Shown here: positions 9,007 through 21,928 of the stretch, piece after piece
Position numbering within the stretch: position 1 is the stretch's first letter
Layout of the letters: the number at the start of each line of letters is the position of its first letter
NCBI GenBank assembly: GCA_023251155.1
Contig: JAHEZH010000004.1
Location: 15,306 to 79,305 of the forward strand
Source: Flammeovirgaceae bacterium
GTDB lineage: Bacteria; Bacteroidota; Bacteroidia; Cytophagales; Cyclobacteriaceae
Direction of reading: 5' to 3'
Length of the DNA stretch: 64,000 nt
Position numbers and translations under genes: made by a program
The notes under the pieces: generated by a model
The model's database searches: none
Told to the model about the DNA's origin: nothing
What the model saw: only the letters and a program-made list of their open reading frames with translations

Positions 9007-10413
9007 TTAATCCACTTCCTTAAACCGCTCATCACCACACATCCGCACAATCTTCGGCACGAATGAACCCAGTACTTGTACCAGTTCTTTCTGCGCGTCC
9101 ATTACCTGGTGAATGTCCTTATAGGCCATCGGTGCTTCATCCAAACCTGAGCCAATCAACTCCACTCCCGCCTCTTTCAAAAACTGGTTCACGGTTGATG
9201 GTGCAATGGTTTCCTTTGCTTTGGTACGTGACATGGTTCTGCCGGCACCATGTGAAGCAGAGTTGATGGACGATGCCATTCCTTTACCCCGAACAATAAA
9301 TCCAGGCGTTGCCATCGACCCTGGAATAATACCCAGCACCCCTTTACCTGCAGGTGTAGCTCCTTTACGATGCACGATCACTTCATTGCCCTGCCCATCT
9401 TTTTCCTTCCATGCAAAGTTGTGATGGTTCTCAATCATGGCAATGGGATGGGCACGAAGTCCAATGGCCATACGCTCATGGATCTGGTGATGACAGGCAG
9501 ATGCATAATCACCGGCAAGGTTCATCGCCAGCCAGTACTCTTGTCCCGCTTCGGTATTGAGATCAAGCCATGCGAGATGCTTTGCTTCCTGCGGAAGTTG
9601 ACAGGTCTCCATGGCTACTTTGGTATAATGTGCCGCGATAGCCGCACCCATACCACGTGAACCCGAGTGCGAAAGTAAAGCCAGGTATTTTCCGGGCAGT
9701 ACATAGTACTCGTTCACTGCCGAAAGAATTTCAACTACACCAAACTCCACAAAGTGATTTCCACCACCGGAAGTACCGATCTGTTTCCAGGCACGGTCCT
9801 TCAGGTCTTTTACTACTTTGATATCATTGAACTCTGCGCGCTGAAAAATTACGTGATCTTTCGGATGCCTGAACACGGCTGTGCCAAACTGGGTGTTGTT
9901 GATCAGCATCTTTTTCAACTCCTCTTTCTTCTCGTCCAGCATCGTCACCGGCAAGTCATACAGCGTAAGGCACATACGGCAACCGATATCCACACCTACT
10001 CCGTAAGGTATAACTGCATTGTTGGTCGCTAACACTCCACCAATAGGAAGTCCGTATCCCTGATGTGCATCGGGCATCAATGCTCCTGCTACAGTTACCG
10101 GAAGTTTCATGGCGGTAGCCATCTGCTTCAGCGCACCTTCTTCAATGGCTTCGGCTCCGTAGATGGAATACGAGGGTGATTGTTTATTTAAAGCGATAAT
10201 AGTATCCGCTGGTTTTCGCAGCTCATTGATGAGGTCAGATAGTTTCTCTTCTGACGAAAAAACTTCCGGAGCAGTAATTATCCTTTGCAACCATACTATT
10301 TGCTCCTCTTTCGTAAGAGTTGCATAGTGTTTTTCAATCATCCGCAAGGCGATACCGATTGCTTTTCCCTCCGGGAAACCTATGCTCTTGAGGTCTGTTC
10401 CTGTTAGTTTCAT
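9007..10413 (-). CDS. rtcB: RNA-splicing ligase RtcB, paralog 1
   Basis: MPDAHQGYGLPIGGVLA, GVDIGCRM, SGGGNHFVEFG, LLSHSGSRGMGA, NHHNFAWKE, SASHGAGRTMSR; start at MKLTGTDLKS (10413) preferred. Confidence 0.97.
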   Translation of the reverse strand: MKLTGTDLKSIGFPEGKAIGIALRMIEKHYATLTKEEQIVWLQRIITAPEVFSSEEKLSDLINELRKPADTIIALNKQSPSYSIYGAEAIEEGALKQMATAMKLPVTVAGALMPDAHQGYGLPIGGVLATNNAVIPYGVGVDIGCRMCLTLYDLPVTMLDEKKEELKKMLINNTQFGTAVFRHPKDHVIFQRAEFNDIKVVKDLKDRAWKQIGTSGGGNHFVEFGVVEILSAVNEYYVLPGKYLALLSHSGSRGMGAAIAAHYTKVAMETCQLPQEAKHLAWLDLNTEAGQEYWLAMNLAGDYASACHHQIHERMAIGLRAHPIAMIENHHNFAWKEKDGQGNEVIVHRKGATPAGKGVLGIIPGSMATPGFIVRGKGMASSINSASHGAGRTMSRTKAKETIAPSTVNQFLKEAGVELIGSGLDEAPMAYKDIHQVMDAQKELVQVLGSFVPKIVRMCGDERFKEVD

Positions 10414-10433: not shown

Positions 10434-10473
10434 TTCAAAGGTGAGGCATGACCGCGCAGTCTTTTTGCGTAGT
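10434..10473. promoter_or_regulatory. Candidate operator site 1, upstream of rtcB paralog 1
   Basis: ttcaaaggtgaggcatgaccgcgcagtctttttgcgtagt, near-identical to blocks at 13042 and 15733. Confidence 0.7.
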
Positions 10474-10498
10474 CAACATAATGTAAAAATAAATCCTA

Positions 10499-11026
10499 TT
10501 AAAGGATAGGGATTTTTAGTCCCATTTTTTTCATTTCCAACAGTGCTTCGGCATTTCCCAGTGCATCGTTCACTGGATTATGGTCATGCTTTGTTTTACG
10601 AAGTAACTTTTTCCATTCATGTGTTCGTGATGTATCCAGTTTCATACCGCAATACAAATCACTTATCCTTCGTCCGCTAAACCCAAAAGGATTTTCTTTC
10701 AGGTAAAAGTGAAAATAATAGTTAATCCACTGCCAGTCAAAGGCTACATTATCACTAATGAAAACAGGTTTACCTAGTGAACTCACCTTGATCCATTGAC
10801 GAAACTCTTGCATTACTTTTAATGGTCCGTCAAAGTTCTCATGCTGTTGACGCGAGAATCCACTTACAGCAAGTACCTCTGGTATCCAGAATGGAGATAC
10901 TGGCTTTACCTTCCCATAAAAAGTTTTGTCTAATGTGCTGTCCAAGATAACCGCGCCAAAACTTATCATTGAATATTGATGCGGTATCGGACCATCCGAT
11001 TCAACATCTACTACTACATAACTCAT
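10499..11026 (-). CDS. DnaQ-like 3'-5' exonuclease
   Basis: YVVVDVESDGPIPHQYSMISFGAV; NVAFDWQWINYYF; HDHNPVNDALGNAEAL (Exo I-III). Confidence 0.85.
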   Translation of the reverse strand: MSYVVVDVESDGPIPHQYSMISFGAVILDSTLDKTFYGKVKPVSPFWIPEVLAVSGFSRQQHENFDGPLKVMQEFRQWIKVSSLGKPVFISDNVAFDWQWINYYFHFYLKENPFGFSGRRISDLYCGMKLDTSRTHEWKKLLRKTKHDHNPVNDALGNAEALLEMKKMGLKIPIL

Positions 11027-11081
11027 TTTTAGTCTACTAAAAGTTTAATATCTATGTTATCTGATGATAACAACTATAAGT

Positions 11082-11153
11082 ACCGAAGGAGAGATTCGAA
11101 CTCTCAAAATCTGGTTTCTAAGACCAGCACGTATCCCGTTCCGTCACTTCGGC
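11082..11153 (-). tRNA. tRNA-Leu(UAG)-like RNA lacking a long variable arm and an encoded CCA
   Basis: Minus GCCGAAG-TG-ACGGAACGGGATACGT-G-CTGGTCTTAGAAACCAG-ATTTT-GAGAGTTCGAATCTCTC-CTTCGGT: 7-bp acceptor, 5-bp anticodon stem with TAG, perfect T-arm. Confidence 0.75.
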
Positions 11154-11206
11154 GAAATTTTAATCAACTGCTCCTCTACTAATTCAATTGTAAAGGAGCA
11201 GAAGAC

Positions 11207-12304
11207 TTACTTTCGAGGCACAAAGATTTCCTTCAATTGATCGATGATCTGCGTTCCTCCTGATAAAGAAATGGTGTTGATCTTATCCGCAATCTTCTCC
11301 ACATATTCCATCTCCTTCAGTTTAAACAGCATTGCATTCTCTTCCATCAGTTTGGCCGTATTCAGCAAACTTCTTGTTGAAGCTGTTTCTTCCCTCCTCA
11401 TGATTACATTGGCTTCTGCTTTCTTCTGAGCAATCAACACCTGGTTCATGATCTCCTTCATTTCACCAGGAAGGATAATGTCTCTCATACCGCAATCGCG
11501 AAGCTCAACGCCAAGCACGGCTACTTTATCTCTTAAAGCGGACATAATATGGGTAGTCATCGATTCCTTTTTCTCCAGCAACTCATCCAGCGAAAGTGTA
11601 CCGATAAACTCTCTCAAGGCCAATTGAATCAAAATATACAGTTGCTTTTCATAATCCTTGTTCTCAATCACCGCCCTGATGATATCAGTGACTTTATATT
11701 GAGCATAAAAATTAATCCGCAACGCTGCTTTATCTCTGGTTAAAATTTCCTGTCCGGAAACCTCAAGTTGCAATTGTCTCAGATCAACCTTTGTTACAGA
11801 TACATCTTTCGCATTCTTCCAAAAATAATATTCGCCAGGTTCTAAAATCCGATCCAGCTTATTATCCACAAACAGAATTCCTTTTTCAAATGAATCTACT
11901 TTACACACCCGAATGAAGGGAACTAATTCTTTTCGTTTCATTGAGTCAAGATCGATGCTTTCAGTAATTTCCACTTTTCTCAAATCTGCTCGGACGAAAG
12001 TATAATCAATTACACCTTTCCAGTAAGCATACCTTCCTGCAGTCAATACATTCTTAAAGTTGCCGTTCTCATACAGCAATACAATTTCATGATCCTTTAC
12101 TTCCACTACAGTAAGCATATCAGCCAATTCTTTATCTTTCAAAAGAATAGTCAGCTCAATGGCTGAATGAAAAGGTTTGGTCATGTCATATTCATAAACA
12201 TCTTCACTCAGTAACCAATAGACACCGGCAGTAATCACTCTTTTGTAATCACCATTTTTAAAAACCAGCCCGACTTTACCATTGTTAATTCTAACTCTTT
12301 TCAT
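11207..12304 (-). CDS. Slipin / SPFH (band 7) family protein
   Basis: LRQLQLEVSGQEILTRDKAALRINFYAQYKVTD...LGVELRDCGMRDIILPGEMKEIMNQVLIAQKKAEANVIMRREETASTRSLLNTAKLM. Confidence 0.9.
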   Translation of the reverse strand: MKRVRINNGKVGLVFKNGDYKRVITAGVYWLLSEDVYEYDMTKPFHSAIELTILLKDKELADMLTVVEVKDHEIVLLYENGNFKNVLTAGRYAYWKGVIDYTFVRADLRKVEITESIDLDSMKRKELVPFIRVCKVDSFEKGILFVDNKLDRILEPGEYYFWKNAKDVSVTKVDLRQLQLEVSGQEILTRDKAALRINFYAQYKVTDIIRAVIENKDYEKQLYILIQLALREFIGTLSLDELLEKKESMTTHIMSALRDKVAVLGVELRDCGMRDIILPGEMKEIMNQVLIAQKKAEANVIMRREETASTRSLLNTAKLMEENAMLFKLKEMEYVEKIADKINTISLSGGTQIIDQLKEIFVPRK

Positions 12305-12697
12305 TTCACTCTTATTTTTAAATTATTAACTATCGCTTCTACCAATTTTCATCAGTAGTCAACTTCAAAAAAAGAAAGTAGTCAGCTGCACATCATCTTT
12401 AGCAAACGGAAGCATTGTTAAGTTCAATTCACCTGGCTTAGTTCTTCGAAAAAACGCTGAACCAGAATACAGATTCAATCTGCATTTCACTTCAGGCATA
12501 TCTTGCAAAGAAGTAAGTTGATTTACTGAACGGTATCTCAACACTTACTTAGTCTTCAGAAGACTGACTCTACTTGTTCATCTCCATTCCCCGAAGGCGA
12601 TGGCATGAACTAATAAGCCGGATCTGCCTCCAACCACTTTCAACATGGATGATCATTTTTAAAGAAGTGACCAACTTCTCCAACCAAAGGCTCCTTT

Positions 12698-12754
12698 AAA
12701 GGGAGTGGGGATTCGAACCCCGCTTTGTTGCTCTACCAGTTGAGCTACCCGCTA
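12698..12754 (-). ncRNA. tRNA-like element lacking an anticodon arm
   Basis: Minus TAGCGGG-TA-GCTCAACTGGTAGAGC-AACAAAGC-GGGGTTCGAATCCCC-ACTCCC: D-arm joined to T-arm by an 8-nt linker. Confidence 0.65.
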
Positions 12755-12756
12755 TT

Positions 12757-12940
12757 AACGGAGAGGGATTTGAACCCTCAACACACAAATTGAGAAAAAT
12801 AACATCGGGCGAAGCAGCATATTATTGCGCATGGCACAACAACACTACAGAGCCATACAGAAACTCTTATCAGGTCTTCTGCCTTATGTTTTCTTCCGCT
12901 CTAACCGGTCATTGACCAGGTTAAAGATTTTCTTTCCGTT
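12757..12940 (-). ncRNA. Interrupted tRNA-like element with T-arm, possible AACGGA/TCCGTT acceptor and a long hairpin in place of the D-arm
   Basis: T-arm GAGGG-TTCAAAT-CCCTC at 12763-12779; hairpin CTTTAACC-T-GGTC-AAT-GACC-GGTTAGAG at 12897-12925. Confidence 0.45.
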
Positions 12941-12977
12941 CCATTACGGAAAATAGTTTCAATGAACTTTATTCTAT

Positions 12978-13008
12978 CAAAACCTCTCCTTCACTATTGA
13001 AGGAGAGG
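12978..13008 (-). terminator. Long hairpin with T-run (terminator or attenuator)
   Basis: cctctccttca-ctat-tgaaggagagg (11 bp) with TTTT on the minus strand. Confidence 0.6.
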
Positions 13009-13041
13009 GCTGCTTTTGTTTTGTATCAATCGTTATTGATG

Positions 13042-13083
13042 ATTCAAAGGTGAAAGGCTACTGCGCAGTCTTTTTGCGTAGAG
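13042..13083. promoter_or_regulatory. Candidate operator site 2, inside the tRNA-like array
   Basis: attcaaaggtgaaaggctactgcgcagtctttttgcgtagag. Confidence 0.7.
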
Positions 13084-13130
13084 AAATTTATTTCCACAAA
13101 ATTTCATCTTCAAGCTCAGTAAAGAGGAAA

Positions 13131-13267
13131 TAGAAAAGACTAGAACTTTCCATCATCTGGTTCGTAGCCAGGGGATTTTCCAATTAATCGATGTTTCCTG
13201 ATGTTAAAAAATCAAGGCAAAAGACGAACAGCCAACAATGTGCTCTAACCAACTGAGCTACATCCAT
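13131..13267 (-). ncRNA. tRNA-Arg(ACG)-like element interrupted between the D-arm and anticodon arm
   Basis: D-arm TAGCTCAGTTGGTTAGAGC at 13242-13260; anticodon arm CTGG-CTACGAA-CCAG at 13157-13171; T-arm GGAAAG-TTCTAGT-CTTTTC at 13133-13151. Confidence 0.5.
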
Positions 13268-13284
13268 ATTCGGTATTTCCGATA

Positions 13285-13430
13285 CAGGAAGGCGGGACTC
13301 GAACCCGCGACCGCACGATCCTAATTCGAAGTAACGCTATTCTACGGCACTTGAATTTTCTTTTTAAAAACGAATGAGCAAAGAGCGTTAAGAGTTTTAT
13401 TGTTGCTCTACCAGGCTGAGCTACCTCAAA
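13285..13430 (-). ncRNA. tRNA-like element with an insert replacing the anticodon arm
   Basis: D-arm TAGCTCAGCCTGGTAGAGC at 13405-13423; GTA-N9-TAC hairpin at 13331-13345; T-arm GCGGG-TTCGAGT-CCCGC at 13292-13308. Confidence 0.6.
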
Positions 13431-13436
13431 CTTGCG

Positions 13437-13500
13437 CTCAAGAGTGGGATTTGAACCCACGACACACCGTTACCGAAGTAGCTCTTATCTACGGCATCGT
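13437..13500 (-). ncRNA. T-arm plus GTA-N9-TAC hairpin element (no D-arm seen)
   Basis: T-arm GTGGG-TTCAAAT-CCCAC at 13444-13460; hairpin at 13478-13492. Confidence 0.5.
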
Positions 13501-13703
13501 TTCGTTTATATTTTAAGCCACTGATTGCACAGATAGAATCAGTGACTATCATTTTAAAAAAGAGGTGAACAATTAACTTTTAACTATTCACCATTAACTA
13601 AGTTAAAAAAGGGCAAAAGACCATCAGAGGCTTTTAACGTGACAGGTTGAAGTAACTCTGGTGTACGGCACCTTTCTATGACGATGAAGCAATATTTGCA
13701 TAA

Positions 13704-13770
13704 AGTTCTGTGGATTCGAACCACTGGCCTTTCGACCATCAACCGATAGAAGTAGCTCTACACTACGGCA
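13704..13770 (-). ncRNA. T-arm, GAAA-tetraloop hairpin and GTA-N9-TAC hairpin element
   Basis: T-arm GTGG-TTCGAAT-CCAC at 13710-13724; TGGTC-GAAA-GGCCA at 13725-13738; hairpin at 13752-13766. Confidence 0.55.
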
Positions 13771-13821
13771 TTCATCATCACAATTATTAATAAGGAGTAA
13801 AATGCGAAATGAGAAAGTGGG

Positions 13822-13920
13822 CACTGCTATGCCGGGAATCGAACCCGGAACACTTTTCCATACGAGATGGATATGTGATTCCTCCCTTCGTGGCGAAGTA
13901 TCTCATTTCTACGACATCCT
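13822..13920 (-). ncRNA. T-arm, intermediate hairpins and GTA-N9-TAC hairpin element
   Basis: T-arm CCGGG-TTCGATT-CCCGG at 13832-13848; CCAT-CTCGT-ATGG hairpin; motif at 13898-13912. Confidence 0.5.
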
Positions 13921-13943
13921 TATTTTTTTCAAAGAACATTTTT

Positions 13944-14149
13944 GTGACCTTATCCGGATTCGAACCGAAATTCCCTCACGGGCAGTATGGCTCTAAATGC
14001 GCTTCCCTACTTTACTTCTTCAGAGCGGTATTTCGGTGCATCTGCAAATTCTATCCGTTATAGCGCGTAGCAGTAACGGAATCATCCATACACGCTGCGG
14101 AACGATCTGGACTTTTACCGCAGGCTTTTCCTTTTAAGCTATAAGGTCT
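13944..14149 (-). ncRNA. tRNA-like scaffold with about 150-nt structured insert in the anticodon region
   Basis: Acceptor GACCTT(A)/(T)AAGGTC; D-arm TAGCTTAAAAGGAAAAGC; T-arm TTCGG-TTCGAAT-CCGGA; insert hairpins CTGCGG..CCGCAG, TCCGTTA..TAACGGA, CCC-GTGA-GGG. Confidence 0.6.
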
Positions 14150-14153
14150 TTTC

Positions 14154-14183
14154 AAAAACCTCCTCTTCCATCTGAAGAGGAGG
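14154..14183 (-). terminator. Rho-independent terminator/attenuator after the Ro60 gene
   Basis: cctcctcttc-catct-gaagaggagg (10 bp) followed by TTTTT on the minus strand. Confidence 0.75.
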
Positions 14184-14190
14184 GCATCAT

Positions 14191-15711
14191 CTACAATTCT
14201 ATCTTTTCAATTTCAGCGAGTGCGTTCCCGCCTTCTTCCAATGCCGATAGTACATCGAAAATCTTATCCGACCATCCCGCTATCAAGTACACCCCATCGT
14301 TGCGCACATCGATAGGTGTAGTTCCATAGCCTGCCAGGTCAAACAAATACAACTTTGCCTTTGGAACTATCTTTCGATATTGTTTCCATAAAGAAGCAAT
14401 GTTGTCCTGCACAGCATTATCTGCACTGTTCCATAACTGACAATCCGTGAACATCATGATCTTATCCACCACCTTTTTCCGATTAATCAGATCTTTCACT
14501 ACCAGGTATCCGTTAGTTGAATAACCTACTTCACCTTCGCGGCTGTAAAACTCCTGCACGTTGGCAAGAATATTCTTACGCGACACGTTGATGATTTTCC
14601 AGGTATCGCCAAACATACCCGTCTGCACATAATCGCAGCGCGATTGCAACAGCATACCCAACATCAAACCGATATCGTAGTTCAGTATCTTGCTCTTCGC
14701 GGAAATGGCTTTCTGCATCGAACCAGAAACATCGCAGGCAATCATCACCGAAGTATCTTTTCCAAAGCCACGGATGTTCATCGCGCTTTGCTCTACTGCT
14801 TGTTCCAATGCATCCAATACCATTGCTACCGCACCAGAGTTCAATACTTTTACCTCACGGTAAGCAGCCAGAAAACGGAAAGGCAATTGCTTCGACTTCA
14901 TCACCGCATTTTTATCCGACAATACCGCACACACTTTAGTCATGGCTTCCCTGGAAACTTCCGCCTCAATAATGTTGCGCAGGTTTCGCATCAACGCCAT
15001 ATACCCCAATGCTCCGTTCAGGATCAGTTCCTCCCACTTGACACGGAAAGCCGCCTGTTTCTCCTGCTCACCGGCAAACTTGTTCTGGCCTAACATCGAC
15101 AACTCGGTCTCCCAGGTATAAGGCACCTGCAATTCATCTTTGGCAATCTTGTTGAACACCACCTGTTGCGCTTCATTCACGGCTTTGGGGTGAACCAGAA
15201 ACAATGCATCCTTCAATCTGATTTCCGCATCACGGTTATATTTTGCAAACTGATATTCATCAAAGCGATTAAATGCTTCCGCTAAACCACGTTGTATCTG
15301 CTTCGAGAGCTTATTTAACTTCTTGGTTTCTTTACGGTCGTTGGCCAATTGATAATACGCCAGCAACTCCGTGATTTCATCTGCACGCTGTACTACCCCG
15401 TTCACTGCTTTGTTTACAATACCGTTTCCGGATTTTACTTTTGCCAGTTCAACCGCCAATACCAGAGGAATGCTTCGCATATACATTTTGTTACGCGCAT
15501 ACACTGCCAGTTGTGCTACGAAAGAAGGATCGTTCTGACCAATCAGCACACGGATGCGCTCCATCCGGTCGTTACCTGACTCATAGAACGTGTTGCTCAA
15601 TGAAGTAGTCACCACCGCACTGTAGAGTTCGGCACGTTTATCTACTGAAAAAGCGGTTGCTCCCTGGTAGTTGGTGACCGGTGTTGCCTTTTTAAATACA
15701 TTGAACTTCAT
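14191..15711 (-). CDS. Ro60-like protein: TROVE domain plus vWA domain
   Basis: MRSIPLVLAVELAKVKSGNG, TROVE helical repeats; MIDAS DVSGSM; start MKFNVFKKATP at 15711 preferred over the ORF-track start 15810. Confidence 0.93.
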   Translation of the reverse strand: MKFNVFKKATPVTNYQGATAFSVDKRAELYSAVVTTSLSNTFYESGNDRMERIRVLIGQNDPSFVAQLAVYARNKMYMRSIPLVLAVELAKVKSGNGIVNKAVNGVVQRADEITELLAYYQLANDRKETKKLNKLSKQIQRGLAEAFNRFDEYQFAKYNRDAEIRLKDALFLVHPKAVNEAQQVVFNKIAKDELQVPYTWETELSMLGQNKFAGEQEKQAAFRVKWEELILNGALGYMALMRNLRNIIEAEVSREAMTKVCAVLSDKNAVMKSKQLPFRFLAAYREVKVLNSGAVAMVLDALEQAVEQSAMNIRGFGKDTSVMIACDVSGSMQKAISAKSKILNYDIGLMLGMLLQSRCDYVQTGMFGDTWKIINVSRKNILANVQEFYSREGEVGYSTNGYLVVKDLINRKKVVDKIMMFTDCQLWNSADNAVQDNIASLWKQYRKIVPKAKLYLFDLAGYGTTPIDVRNDGVYLIAGWSDKIFDVLSALEEGGNALAEIEKIEL

Positions 15712-15731
15712 AACGGTTTCGTTTAATTGAT

Positions 15732-15773
15732 GATTCAAAGGTGAACGGCCACTGCGCAGTCTTTTTGCGTAGT
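15732..15773. promoter_or_regulatory. Candidate operator site 3, between divergent Ro60 and WYL-PhyH genes
   Basis: gattcaaaggtgaacggccactgcgcagtctttttgcgtagt; inverted arms ACTACGCA-N7-TGCGCAGT (one mismatch). Confidence 0.75.
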
Positions 15774-15809: not shown

Positions 15810-17543
15810 ATGCCTGTCACCCGAAACGCCCTCGTTCGCTACCGTACCATCGACAACTGCCTGAGAAACAGGCAACGCAAATGGACGTTGGAAGATTTAA
15901 TCGATACGTGCTCGGAAGCACTCTATGAATATGAAGGCATAGATAAAGGAGTGAGCAGGCGATCCATACAAATGGACATTCAACTCATGCGAAGCGATAA
16001 GCTGGGTTATAATGCCCCCATTGTTGTGCTGGAAAAGAAGTACTACACTTACGAAGATCCGGACTATTCCATCACCAACATTCCATTGACCGACCAGGAT
16101 CTGGGCAAGCTCACCGAAGTAGTAGAGATACTGCGACAGTTCAAAGGCTTCAGTCATTTTCAGGACCTGAGCGGGATGGTGCAACGACTGGAAAACAAAA
16201 TCCATTCTGCAAAAACACAACAGGAACCCATCATTGACTTTGAGAGGAACGACCATCTCAAAGGATTAGAGCATATTGAAACTCTCTATCAAACGATCAT
16301 CAATAAAAAGGCCATTGAACTTTGCTATCAGTCGTTTAAGGCACGGACCTCCAACACCTTTACTTTTCATCCTTATTATCTCAAGGAATACCGCAACCGC
16401 TGGTTTGTGATTGGTATCAAAAAGAAGAACACACCTGTCATGAACCTGGCGCTTGACCGGATCATCAGTATCACAGAAACGTCAGTAAAGTATCAGCCAC
16501 GAGAAAATTTCACCATCTCTTCATTATTGAATAATGTGATCGGTGTTTCTGTAAACACGGAAGGGACTACTGAGCACGTAGTGTTTATGGCCGATTATCA
16601 TACTGCTCCTTACATCCTTACCAAACCCTTGCATCACTCACAACAATTAGTAGAGAAGCGGCAGGACGGAATCGTTTTTTCCATTGATGTACAGCTCAAT
16701 TTTGAACTGGAACGTGAGTTGCTTGGCTTTGGTGACCGAATTAAAGTAATAGCCCCGGATAGACTAAAACGCAATCTGAGAGAAATATTTTCCAATGCCG
16801 TTGATCTTTACCAGCACGAATTCAGTACTTCCAGCTTGCAGAACAACCTGCAAAAACTGAAGCACAAAGGTTTTATGATGCTGAATCATCTCTACCTGAA
16901 GAAAGAAGTGAACCAAATAAAACTGGCTGTTCATCAACATTTGCGATCAACCGGACAGCCGCCCGATACACATGCTGTGCGTTACCTGCTTAATGAAGTT
17001 CCTTCGCTCAGGAAAATGATATTTAACACTAACCTGCTACAGCTTCTTCAGCGGATCGATTCCAGATTATTTTTAACCAAAGCCATTTACTTTGATAAGA
17101 CACCGGAAGCCAACTGGTACGTTACCTGGCATCAGGACATTATTATCAATGTAAAAGAAAAAATAGAAACAGAAGGCTTCACCGGCTGGACGAAGAAAGC
17201 AGGAGTTCATGGCGTATGCCCTCCGGATGAAATATTAACCAATACGATTACTGTCCGTATTCATCTGGACGATGCGAATGAACATAATGGTGCGTTGAAA
17301 GTCATTCCGGGGTCACATCAAAAGAAGCTGAGCGATGAAGAAATCAGTGTCATCGCTCAGAATAGTTTTTCACAAACATGCCAGGTAAGTGCCGGATGTA
17401 TTCACGTGATGAAACCTTTGCTCCTGCATTCCTCTTCGAAGGCAACCAATACTTCGCACAGGAGAGTGATTCATCTGGAGTTTAATACGATGGAACTGCC
17501 CAATGGCCTGGAATGGGCCGAGAGATTGGAGTTGAATAAATAG
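15810..17543 (+). CDS. WYL-domain transcriptional regulator fused to a C-terminal PhyH-like dioxygenase domain
   Basis: N-terminus wHTH/WYL (IELCYQSFKARTSNTFTFHPYYLKEYRNRWFVIGI); C-terminus WYVTWHQDIIINV...HNGALKVIPGSHQKK...CIHVMKPLLLHSSSKATNTSHRRVIHLEF. Confidence 0.85.
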   Translation: MPVTRNALVRYRTIDNCLRNRQRKWTLEDLIDTCSEALYEYEGIDKGVSRRSIQMDIQLMRSDKLGYNAPIVVLEKKYYTYEDPDYSITNIPLTDQDLGKLTEVVEILRQFKGFSHFQDLSGMVQRLENKIHSAKTQQEPIIDFERNDHLKGLEHIETLYQTIINKKAIELCYQSFKARTSNTFTFHPYYLKEYRNRWFVIGIKKKNTPVMNLALDRIISITETSVKYQPRENFTISSLLNNVIGVSVNTEGTTEHVVFMADYHTAPYILTKPLHHSQQLVEKRQDGIVFSIDVQLNFELERELLGFGDRIKVIAPDRLKRNLREIFSNAVDLYQHEFSTSSLQNNLQKLKHKGFMMLNHLYLKKEVNQIKLAVHQHLRSTGQPPDTHAVRYLLNEVPSLRKMIFNTNLLQLLQRIDSRLFLTKAIYFDKTPEANWYVTWHQDIIINVKEKIETEGFTGWTKKAGVHGVCPPDEILTNTITVRIHLDDANEHNGALKVIPGSHQKKLSDEEISVIAQNSFSQTCQVSAGCIHVMKPLLLHSSSKATNTSHRRVIHLEFNTMELPNGLEWAERLELNK

Positions 17544-19674: not shown

Positions 19675-20541
19675 TTAAAGGGTGAAACTTATTTTATGAA
19701 GACAAAGATAACGTCTCGTGCACAGAAACGAAAGGAGGAAGAATAGGTTACAAAAAAAAGAAACCCCAGTCTCATGGGGTTTCTTGTATTCAACATTCAT
19801 AATACGGTCGGGCCAATGTTCATGAAGAACATCAGAGAAGGATACATTCCTTAAAGGATTGTCAAAAATCTTCCTTCTTTCCCATCGATAAGAACAATCT
19901 AAAATTTTCCATAACCGAGGACGAAGATGATGTGTGACAAACAAACGGCTGATCTCCCCTACTCGTCTCTCATAATGTATATTCTTTACCTGAAACTTAG
20001 TGATCATGTTAGGTTTAATCTGGAGAACAAATCGCCACGGCTCTGTAAACAAAAATACTCTTTCAACTCTTCCTTTATCATGCACGAGAGATTCATAAAA
20101 AAGCTCACGCTCGGCATCAGTAAATTTCTTGCCATAGAACTCCCTTTCTGATAACTTCCTCAGCAGTTGCTCTCGGACAACATATACCTTTTTACCAAAT
20201 CGTCTTCGCTTCTTTTTAAAATCCTTCCTCGAACTCCATTGAGTTGTATTGATCTTATCCAACACAGTCTGATATAAGGCTGCCTTCTTTTCTCTCTTTA
20301 CATCGCTGCGCAACACAAAAAGCCGATTCCATCCCTTTTGATAGGGCGGCTTTAAATCAATCCATTCCTGAGAACGAATGCGCTTTACAATCTCTACTTC
20401 TTCATCATATAATCTGCGTAACATCTTATCATGCGCTTCAATGGCTGATCGTCTTCTTCTCCGATAAGATCTAAATCTGCCATGCTGGATATACTCGCTA
20501 TCTGCCCGATTCATAACTTTAATCTTTAGCCATCCGAACAA
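19675..20541 (-). CDS. Basic hypothetical protein overlapping the 3' end of rtcB paralog 2
   Basis: Arg/Lys-rich ORF; start possibly MNRADSEYIQ at 20514; C-terminal tail reads through the terminator. Confidence 0.6.
   Translation of the reverse strand: MFGWLKIKVMNRADSEYIQHGRFRSYRRRRRSAIEAHDKMLRRLYDEEVEIVKRIRSQEWIDLKPPYQKGWNRLFVLRSDVKREKKAALYQTVLDKINTTQWSSRKDFKKKRRRFGKKVYVVREQLLRKLSEREFYGKKFTDAERELFYESLVHDKGRVERVFLFTEPWRFVLQIKPNMITKFQVKNIHYERRVGEISRLFVTHHLRPRLWKILDCSYRWERRKIFDNPLRNVSFSDVLHEHWPDRIMNVEYKKPHETGVSFFCNLFFLLSFLCTRRYLCLHKISFTL
19752..19784 (-). terminator. Rho-independent terminator within the annotated 3' end of ORF 19675-20541
   Basis: Minus AGAAACCCCA-TGAGAC-TGGGGTTTCT-TTTTTTT. 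Confidence 0.75.
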
Positions 20542-21928
20542 TCTTCGGATGGAATTTTCCTTCTGTTGCGACCAGCGTTCCCTGGCTTTTCATTACTGCT
20601 TCGATGTCTTTGTAGGCCATCGGAGCTTCTTCCGGGCTTCCGCCAATAAGTGTTACTTTCTCCGACTGTAAGAGTTTCTTCATCGCGCTTACCGTAGTCG
20701 ACTCTTTTGCTTTCAGACGCGACATCTTTCTGCCCGCGCCATGAGCGGCCGAGTTCAGCGACAACTCATTACCCAATCCACGCACAATAAAACCTGGCGC
20801 AGTCATGCTTCCGGGAATGATTCCATATACCTCCTTTGCAGCAGGCGTAGCTCCTTTGCGGTGAACGATGTATTCCTTTCCATCACTCAATGTTTCTTTC
20901 CATGCAAAGTTGTGATGGTTCTCTACCACACGAAGCACTTCTGCACCCAATGCACGGCAGATGTTTCCATGAATGCGATCGTGACATGCTTTGGCATATT
21001 CACCTGCCAGGTTCATGGAGAGCCAGTACTCCTGACCTTCGGCACTCTCCATCGTTAACCACGCCAGCTGCTTTGCTTCACGCGGCAATTTGCAGGTGTT
21101 CATCGCGATGTTGGTATAATGCTGCGCAATGTTTGCTCCCAGGCTTCGTGAGCCGGAGTGCGAAAGCAATGCGGCATAGTTAGCAGCAGGAAGTTGAAAG
21201 GTATTCCCTTCCGCTAATTCAACGATACCGAACTCCACAAAGTGATTACCCGAGCCTGAACTCCCCAGTTGCCTCACCGACTTTCCATGCAGTCGTCTCA
21301 GCAATTCCGTTTGTTGAAAGTGCGGATGATCCAGCACCTCATGCTCCTGGTGGAACTCCAGTCCGCCATCATTACCAAAATGCGTATAGTCCTGTAGCAC
21401 TTTCCTCAACGCATAAGCATTATGTTCGACATAGCTCGCCGGCAGATCAAGAATACTCAACGCCATACGGCAACCGATGTCCATCCCTACACCATACGGA
21501 ATCACGGCATTCTCAGCAGCCAGCACGCCACCAATAGGAATACCATACCCCTGGTGTGCATCCGGCATCAGAGCGCCATACACTGCCACCGGCAATCGCA
21601 TGGCCATCTCCATTTGCCTGATTGCGTTGCCTTCGATGTGCTTGTTACCAAACACTTCAAAATGTTTTTCCTCGTGTTCTAATTCATAACTTAATGAAGA
21701 TGCTTTGTCTTCGGTTTTATTGGTTAGTTTATAAGCCAGCGTTCCTAATACTTCATGATTGAAATACAATTCCGGCTCGCTCAGCACATGTGTTAATACT
21801 GATATTTTTTCTTCGATGGATGAATGCTTAAAGCCCCGGTTTATGCTATTCATAGCGAGACTGATCGCAACATCGGACGAATAGCCAATGAGACGCACGT
21901 CCCGGCTATTCAATTTTTGATTGCCCAT
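20519..21928 (-). CDS. rtcB: RNA-splicing ligase RtcB, paralog 2
   Basis: MPDAHQGYGIPIGGVLAAENAVIPYGVGMDIGCRM, SGSGNHFVEFG, NHHNFAWKE, AAHGAGRKMSR. Confidence 0.97.
   Translation of the reverse strand: MGNQKLNSRDVRLIGYSSDVAISLAMNSINRGFKHSSIEEKISVLTHVLSEPELYFNHEVLGTLAYKLTNKTEDKASSLSYELEHEEKHFEVFGNKHIEGNAIRQMEMAMRLPVAVYGALMPDAHQGYGIPIGGVLAAENAVIPYGVGMDIGCRMALSILDLPASYVEHNAYALRKVLQDYTHFGNDGGLEFHQEHEVLDHPHFQQTELLRRLHGKSVRQLGSSGSGNHFVEFGIVELAEGNTFQLPAANYAALLSHSGSRSLGANIAQHYTNIAMNTCKLPREAKQLAWLTMESAEGQEYWLSMNLAGEYAKACHDRIHGNICRALGAEVLRVVENHHNFAWKETLSDGKEYIVHRKGATPAAKEVYGIIPGSMTAPGFIVRGLGNELSLNSAAHGAGRKMSRLKAKESTTVSAMKKLLQSEKVTLIGGSPEEAPMAYKDIEAVMKSQGTLVATEGKFHPKIVRMAKD

Follow-up and report, generated by a model that had tools for sequence, protein, structure and literature searches.

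A conserved 23-nucleotide dyad as the candidate operator of a WYL-domain activator of RNA-repair genes in Bacteroidota

The DNA examined here, a stretch of 64,000 nucleotides (nt) from a Flammeovirgaceae bacterium (contig JAHEZH010000004.1; hereafter the window), contains an island of RNA-repair genes in which a block of about 40 nt occurs three times. The blocks are most likely activator operators with their promoters, serving a WYL-domain activator related to DriD and PafBC and, through it, an RNA-repair regulon that would extend across the phylum Bacteroidota. On comparative grounds, the three blocks are very probably docking sites of a single regulator, encoded by the divergent gene beside the Ro60 gene. 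The original prediction had described the blocks and proposed this regulator as their binder; the blocks are present and exact in position.

Three operator copies in the window and the host genome

The 23-nt dyad cores read on the plus strand ACCGCGCAGTCTTTTTGCGTAGT (10451-10473), ACTGCGCAGTCTTTTTGCGTAGA (13060-13082) and ACTGCGCAGTCTTTTTGCGTAGT (15751-15773). All three have the same orientation and, on the minus strand, are followed by 11 nt, the tetranucleotide TTTG and the target:

10451..10473, minus strand: operator dyad 1 (ACTACGCAAAAAGACTGCGCGGT), in front of rtcB
10436..10439, minus strand: TTTG of the -7-like element CACCTTTG for rtcB, 11 nt after the dyad core
13060..13082, minus strand: operator dyad 2 (TCTACGCAAAAAGACTGCGCAGT), inside the Y-RNA-like array
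13045..13048, minus strand: TTTG of the -7-like element for the second array half and probably the slipin gene
15751..15773, minus strand: operator dyad 3 (ACTACGCAAAAAGACTGCGCAGT), between the divergent Ro60 and WYL-PhyH genes
15736..15739, minus strand: TTTG of the -7-like element for Ro60

The consensus dyad ACTRCGCA-N7-TGCGYAGT has three copies in the 6.44-Mb genome, all at this locus, and an exact 19-mer is likewise confined to the three window copies. The shared 18-mer CGCAGTCTTTTTGCGTAG matches the window three times, against 0.04 matches expected from shuffles. A fourth genome match with two mismatches (L004) lies inside a gene for a major facilitator superfamily (MFS) transporter and was taken as chance. 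The genome-wide search proposed in the original prediction thus did not turn up the many unrelated copies that would have spoken against an operator. The claim that the core is an inverted repeat around seven nucleotides needs qualification: the dyad is there and is perfect in relatives, e.g. ACTGCGCA-N7-TGCGCAGT in L006, while in the host genome its arms, CTACGCA and CTGCGCA, match imperfectly and the rtcB copy in addition carries a C in place of T.

Conservation of the dyad at WYL loci

Regulator homologs in relatives have this dyad upstream. Nine such regions yielded a position-weight matrix of the 23-nt core, which was applied to 80 named loci from Cytophagales, Flavobacteriales, Sphingobacteriales, Chitinophagales, Saprospirales and one Balneola. 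For 68 of these 80 loci, TRCGCA-N7-TGCGYA is present in the 700 nt preceding the WYL gene. Changing the gap to 3-6 or 8-12 nt gave no dyad upstream of WYL at the 80 loci, matched coding controls gave 0/80, and the downstream flanks of the WYL loci contained none in 659 kb. The distance from dyad to WYL start codon is 33-58 nt for 41 sites, with a mode of 36 nt. In one case (G044/L046), a distant WYL gene has the operator site at its far end. The closeness of the three window copies, and nothing more, would favour a chance or mobile repeat. Such an origin, already refuted by the expected number of matches in the window and by the recurrence of the dyad in other genera with divergent flanks, has a negligible probability.

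Promoter layout

The dyad search model contained no TTTG, and this tetranucleotide stands exactly 11 nt after the core at 106 of 125 sites. Primary promoters of Bacteroidota (sigmaABfr-type) carry TAnnTTTG at -7 and TTTG at -33 (PMC7366714). The sites studied here keep the TTTG and otherwise depart from this pattern: no TTG is found at the -33 position of the 106 sites, where TTG or TTTG would be expected, and the full TAnnTTTG is present at merely four of them. A canonical -33/-7 promoter was rejected on these grounds. The reading of the window's -7-like element as TAnnTTTG was also incorrect, as it is actually CACCTTTG; strong conservation is limited to TTTG. If the transcription start is placed at its usual distance from TTTG, the dyad centre falls near -33. 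Judging by this layout, the dyad stands at a constant distance from -7 where a -33 box would be, and the promoters are predicted to be activator-dependent.

On the WYL side, 15 of 40 cases have a TAnnTTT at 13-14 nt from the dyad, compared with about 1.2 expected. The WYL promoter therefore probably stands back to back with the target promoter, in a different phase. Autoregulation of the WYL gene, also part of the original prediction, is plausible but calls for caution, because the WYL-side promoter has a different and weaker phasing to the dyad than the target side and because DriD, at its own gene, activates the divergent operon only (PMC12340889).

An inverted repeat close to non-coding RNA (ncRNA) genes, with copy 2 inside an array of them, might instead act as RNA, in the form of an attenuator, terminator or processing hairpin. 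This is very improbable. Core positions 3 and 19 have no pairing preference (39 A-C vs 19 A-T; Fisher p 0.33), and we rejected the hairpin for this lack of covariation. With its position upstream of the -7 element, the dyad would moreover not be transcribed with the target, and it also precedes protein genes that have no ncRNA nearby.

The regulator and its link to the dyad

The modelled part of the regulator, consisting of helix-turn-helix (HTH), WYL and WCX domains (predicted local distance difference test, pLDDT, 80; predicted template modelling score, pTM, 0.51), matches DriD and PafBC along its whole length. Foldseek placed DriD (8tp8) first (residues 1-343) and PafBC next, followed by CapW and BrxR with weaker scores, and the profile match to DriD has an E-value of 8e-9. 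The protein shares three attributes with DriD/PafBC-type activators: N-terminal HTH, WYL and WCX domains (WYL and WCX above the Pfam cut-off), a symmetric dyad with a 7-nt gap and, by sequence, a site at a fixed distance from -10/-7 that replaces the -35/-33 box. A single -26 motif of the PafBC kind was set aside, the symmetric dyad fitting DriD better. Among 79 homologs, 32 (about 40%) are long enough to include the PhyH oxygenase and 46 are short HTH-WYL-WCX proteins. A scan of viral contigs returned distant WYL homologs only (28-36% identity).

The same operator could serve a WYL repressor that sits over the -33 region and is released by a ligand, as in BrxR and CapW. The dyad indeed covers the -33 region of Ro60 and rtcB, its position directly before the WYL gene would permit autorepression, and the BrxR and CapW structures do match. 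However, the sites combine an invariant 11-nt phasing, a missing -33 TTG and a weak -7, features that activator-dependent promoters require and that a repressor could do without, and the top structural matches are both activators. We consider repression unlikely.

Co-occurrence of dyad and regulator was assessed in a class sample of 396 genomes and, separately, in 58 relatives. The strict motif was found in 24 genomes with a WYL homolog and one without (Fisher 3e-23) and the relaxed motif in 42 and eight (Fisher 1e-39); among the relatives, motif-positive genomes numbered 15 and one (Fisher 8e-12), all p-values that overstate certainty because related genomes are non-independent. A reversed-pattern control gave no matches in three scans and two in a fourth. 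The link between dyad and WYL persists in genomes where sites and WYL gene lie apart (G043, G051, G012 and others). In G091, which has the relaxed motif and no close homolog, a distant WYL gene (31% identity) adjoins the site. Residue Q54 of the recognition helix is conserved in 136 of 140 cases; in L094 and L097 it is replaced by R, and both operator arms have changed together to CTGTGCA-N7-TGCACAG. No canonical dyad was found at a third locus with R at position 54.

These data also bear on the possibility that another factor, such as an alternative sigma factor or a different regulator, reads the dyad and that the WYL gene is one more target. A conserved upstream block and a -7 element at fixed spacing do resemble a sigma-factor promoter, and a few motif-positive genomes are without a close WYL homolog. 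Yet dimeric HTH proteins typically read dyads of this 8-7-8 form, motif and WYL gene go together even where the sites are distant, and operator arms and recognition helix change together in two loci. Recognition by another factor is accordingly quite improbable. The WYL regulator as binder gains strong comparative support from the conserved dyad and its spacing, from co-occurrence, from the repair genes downstream and from the structural match to DriD.

Genes downstream of the operator across Bacteroidota

In the first 83 loci, rtcB begins within 150 nt of the site at 34 (plus paralogs) and Ro60 at 18. The slipin gene follows its site after a gap of several hundred nt, which holds tRNAs and Y-like RNAs where checked. 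In whole-genome scans of WYL-positive genomes, an RNA-repair gene lies at most 1.25 kb downstream at 57 of 69 sites, counting as repair genes those for RtcB, Ro60, slipin, Hen1-Pnkp, RlaP, RnlA-like ligase and RING_SCO0854; the last is an unproven repair gene present at four sites, without which the number is 53. The same holds for 19 of 27 sites without a nearby WYL gene, and sites far from it precede rtcB, Ro60, slipin, Hen1-Pnkp, RlaP and RnlA. In Mucilaginibacter sp. PPCGB 2223 (L096), the site lies 105 nt before Hen1 (TIGR04074, 690 bits vs a cut-off of 340) and Pnkp (TIGR04075, 1392 vs 750). The RnlA-like ligase scores above the Pfam cut-off and below the NCBIfam cut-off.

The same operator stands before many repair genes and therefore points to a phylum-wide RNA-repair regulon. 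Co-regulation of Ro60, part of the ncRNA array and rtcB, as originally proposed, is supported comparatively by repair genes after sites both in cis and in trans.

Several observations weigh against a regulon under this regulator, in addition to the non-independence of related genomes noted above. No recognised repair gene lies downstream at 12 of the 69 sites. A recognisable dyad near WYL is missing at some loci with a close WYL homolog (e.g. L058, L061, L124), the relaxed motif is absent from nine of 63 WYL-positive genomes, and the motif-positive genomes without a close homolog are to be counted here too. Lastly, the joint change of Q54 and the operator arms may be a single evolutionary event.

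Other genes were seen after the same operator. RING_SCO0854-like proteins follow it in L203, L205, L244 and also L200, which suggests that they have a role in RNA repair. In L238 and L245, the gene that separates the operator from Hen1 encodes a 187-amino-acid (aa) protein without a Pfam match. L220 (G108) has the operator in front of both an RtcB gene and a bpX4-bpMoxR operon (MoxR-vWA-beta-propeller ternary).

The RNA-repair island

The locus is an RNA-repair island with genes for a Thg1-like protein, an AAA_33 kinase, RtcB, an exoribonuclease, tRNA-Leu, slipin, a Y-RNA-like array and Ro60; further members are the divergent HTH-WYL-WCX-PhyH gene, an HD-AAA_33 protein and an RNA ligase. Those around the operators are:

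9007..10413, minus strand: RtcB RNA ligase (predicted promoter upstream of the probable start, ATG 10413)
10499..11026, minus strand: 3'-5' exoribonuclease (Rv2179c-like/RNase_T)
11080..11153, minus strand: tRNA-Leu (anticodon TAG)
11207..12304, minus strand: slipin/SPFH-Band_7 protein (Pfam Band_7)
12340..13040, minus strand: second half of the ncRNA array, downstream of operator 2, with a YrlA-like RNA at 12724-12787
13084..14165, minus strand: Ro60-proximal half of the ncRNA array, with YrlA-like and Deinococcus-Y-RNA-like RNAs below Rfam gathering cut-offs
14191..15711, minus strand: Ro60/TROVE-vWA protein (Pfam TROVE, vWA_Ro60), start probably ATG 15711
15810..17543, plus strand: regulator, HTH-WYL-WCX fused to a PhyH-type 2-oxoglutarate-Fe(II) (2OG-Fe(II)) oxygenase, 577 aa (Pfam WYL, WCX, PhyH)

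For rtcB, ATG 10413 is the probable start codon; ATG 10431 would fall at or upstream of the predicted transcription start. The array (12340-14165) combines several Y-RNA-like or tRNA-like RNAs with an internal promoter, and relatives have tRNA genes there (Arg, Pro, Leu, Tyr, Lys). Its best YrlA (RF02553) score is 45.2 bits, under the 69-bit gathering cut-off. The repeat GAAGTAnCTCT-N-CTACGgCAT (GAAGTA..CTACGGCAT) has five copies, all in the Ro60-proximal half, and operator 2 marks the start of the other half. A second RtcB paralog (window 20519-21928), about 49% identical to RtcB homologs, belongs to the same island and has none of the three operators in front.

Proposed mechanism and significance

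We propose that an HTH-WYL-WCX homodimer binds ACTRCGCA-N7-TGCGYAGT in place of the -33 box, a fixed 11 nt from the TTTG of a weak -7. With an inducing ligand on its WYL domains, the regulator would anchor RNA polymerase at the promoter, as DriD and PafBC do. Ro60 and the first array half, the second array half (probably with slipin and the exoribonuclease) and RtcB would then be induced jointly. Elsewhere in Bacteroidota, the same operator would serve RtcB, Ro60, tRNA/Y-RNA arrays with slipin, Hen1-Pnkp, RlaP and RnlA. The computations establish the sites, their spacing and conservation, the co-occurrence with WYL and the downstream genes; that binding is direct, that the regulator activates and does not repress, and that its ligand signals damage to nucleic acids, we infer.

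Sensing of RNA damage in bacteria is known mainly for RtcR in enterobacteria. Through the 23-nt operator, a candidate RNA-repair regulon can be recognised throughout a phylum and its probable regulator named, which offers a way into the question of how Bacteroidota may sense broken RNA. One signal would join RNA-repair pathways that are usually studied apart, namely RtcB-Ro60-Y RNA, Hen1-Pnkp, RlaP and RnlA, and this inducing signal becomes testable with one reporter. The RING_SCO0854 family, the 187-aa protein before Hen1 and the bpX4-MoxR systems, being under the same site, are candidate RNA-repair parts.

Comparison with known systems

The array RNAs resemble YrlA-type Y RNAs (RF02553) in having D-arm/T-arm modules without an anticodon arm and in scoring against YrlA, but all remain below the gathering cut-off and several stand in tandem with an internal promoter.

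Two systems control similar genes. In Salmonella, Ro60, Y RNA and RtcB (rsr-yrlBA-rtcBA) are under one divergently encoded, ligand-controlled activator, RtcR (PMC7790460), and the window likewise has Ro60, Y RNAs (below the Rfam cut-off) and RtcB together. RtcR, however, is a sigma-54 activator with CARF and AAA+ domains triggered by tRNA fragments, whereas Pfam assigns the window regulator WYL, WCX and PhyH only, without CARF and sigma-54 AAA+ domains. The window system also has several dispersed sites and extra targets, and no sigma-54 element was noticed in it. Anabaena likewise places rtcB, a slipin gene and an array of tRNA genes under one regulator, TrcR (PMC10272220), but this is a repressor of the ribbon-helix-helix type whose 8-bp site, unrelated to the dyad, covers the -10 box. 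RtcR and TrcR are thus functional parallels from unrelated regulators.

PafBC of mycobacteria (PMC11804915) shares with the window regulator the WYL activator type, a sigma adaptation that replaces -35 recognition and a damage response. It differs as a heterodimer with a single -26 motif, a single-stranded DNA (ssDNA) ligand and a DNA-damage regulon, in contrast to the symmetric dyad and single gene found here. DriD, the WYL activator of Caulobacter crescentus (PDB 8tp8, 9pfq, 9pfv), recognizes ATACGAC-N7-GTCGTAT at a site over -35, a fixed distance from poor -10 elements (PMC12340889). The two systems have in common the HTH-WYL-WCX fold, two 7-nt arms around N7 with TRCG at the same place in both half-sites, a site over -35/-33 at a fixed distance from a weak -10/-7 and a divergent promoter at the regulator gene. 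They differ in half-site sequence, in the Bacteroidota-type -7 of the window system and in the C-terminal PhyH length of about 40% of its homologs; DriD answers ssDNA and controls DNA-damage genes, while the predicted targets here are RNA-repair genes. Searchable papers gave no account of an operator or regulon linking RtcB, Ro60, Hen1 or Pnkp with WYL, and the neighbourhood itself is possibly included in Burroughs and Aravind 2016. The operator type is already known from DriD, whereas the pairing of this regulator with an RNA-repair regulon appears to be new within searchable papers.

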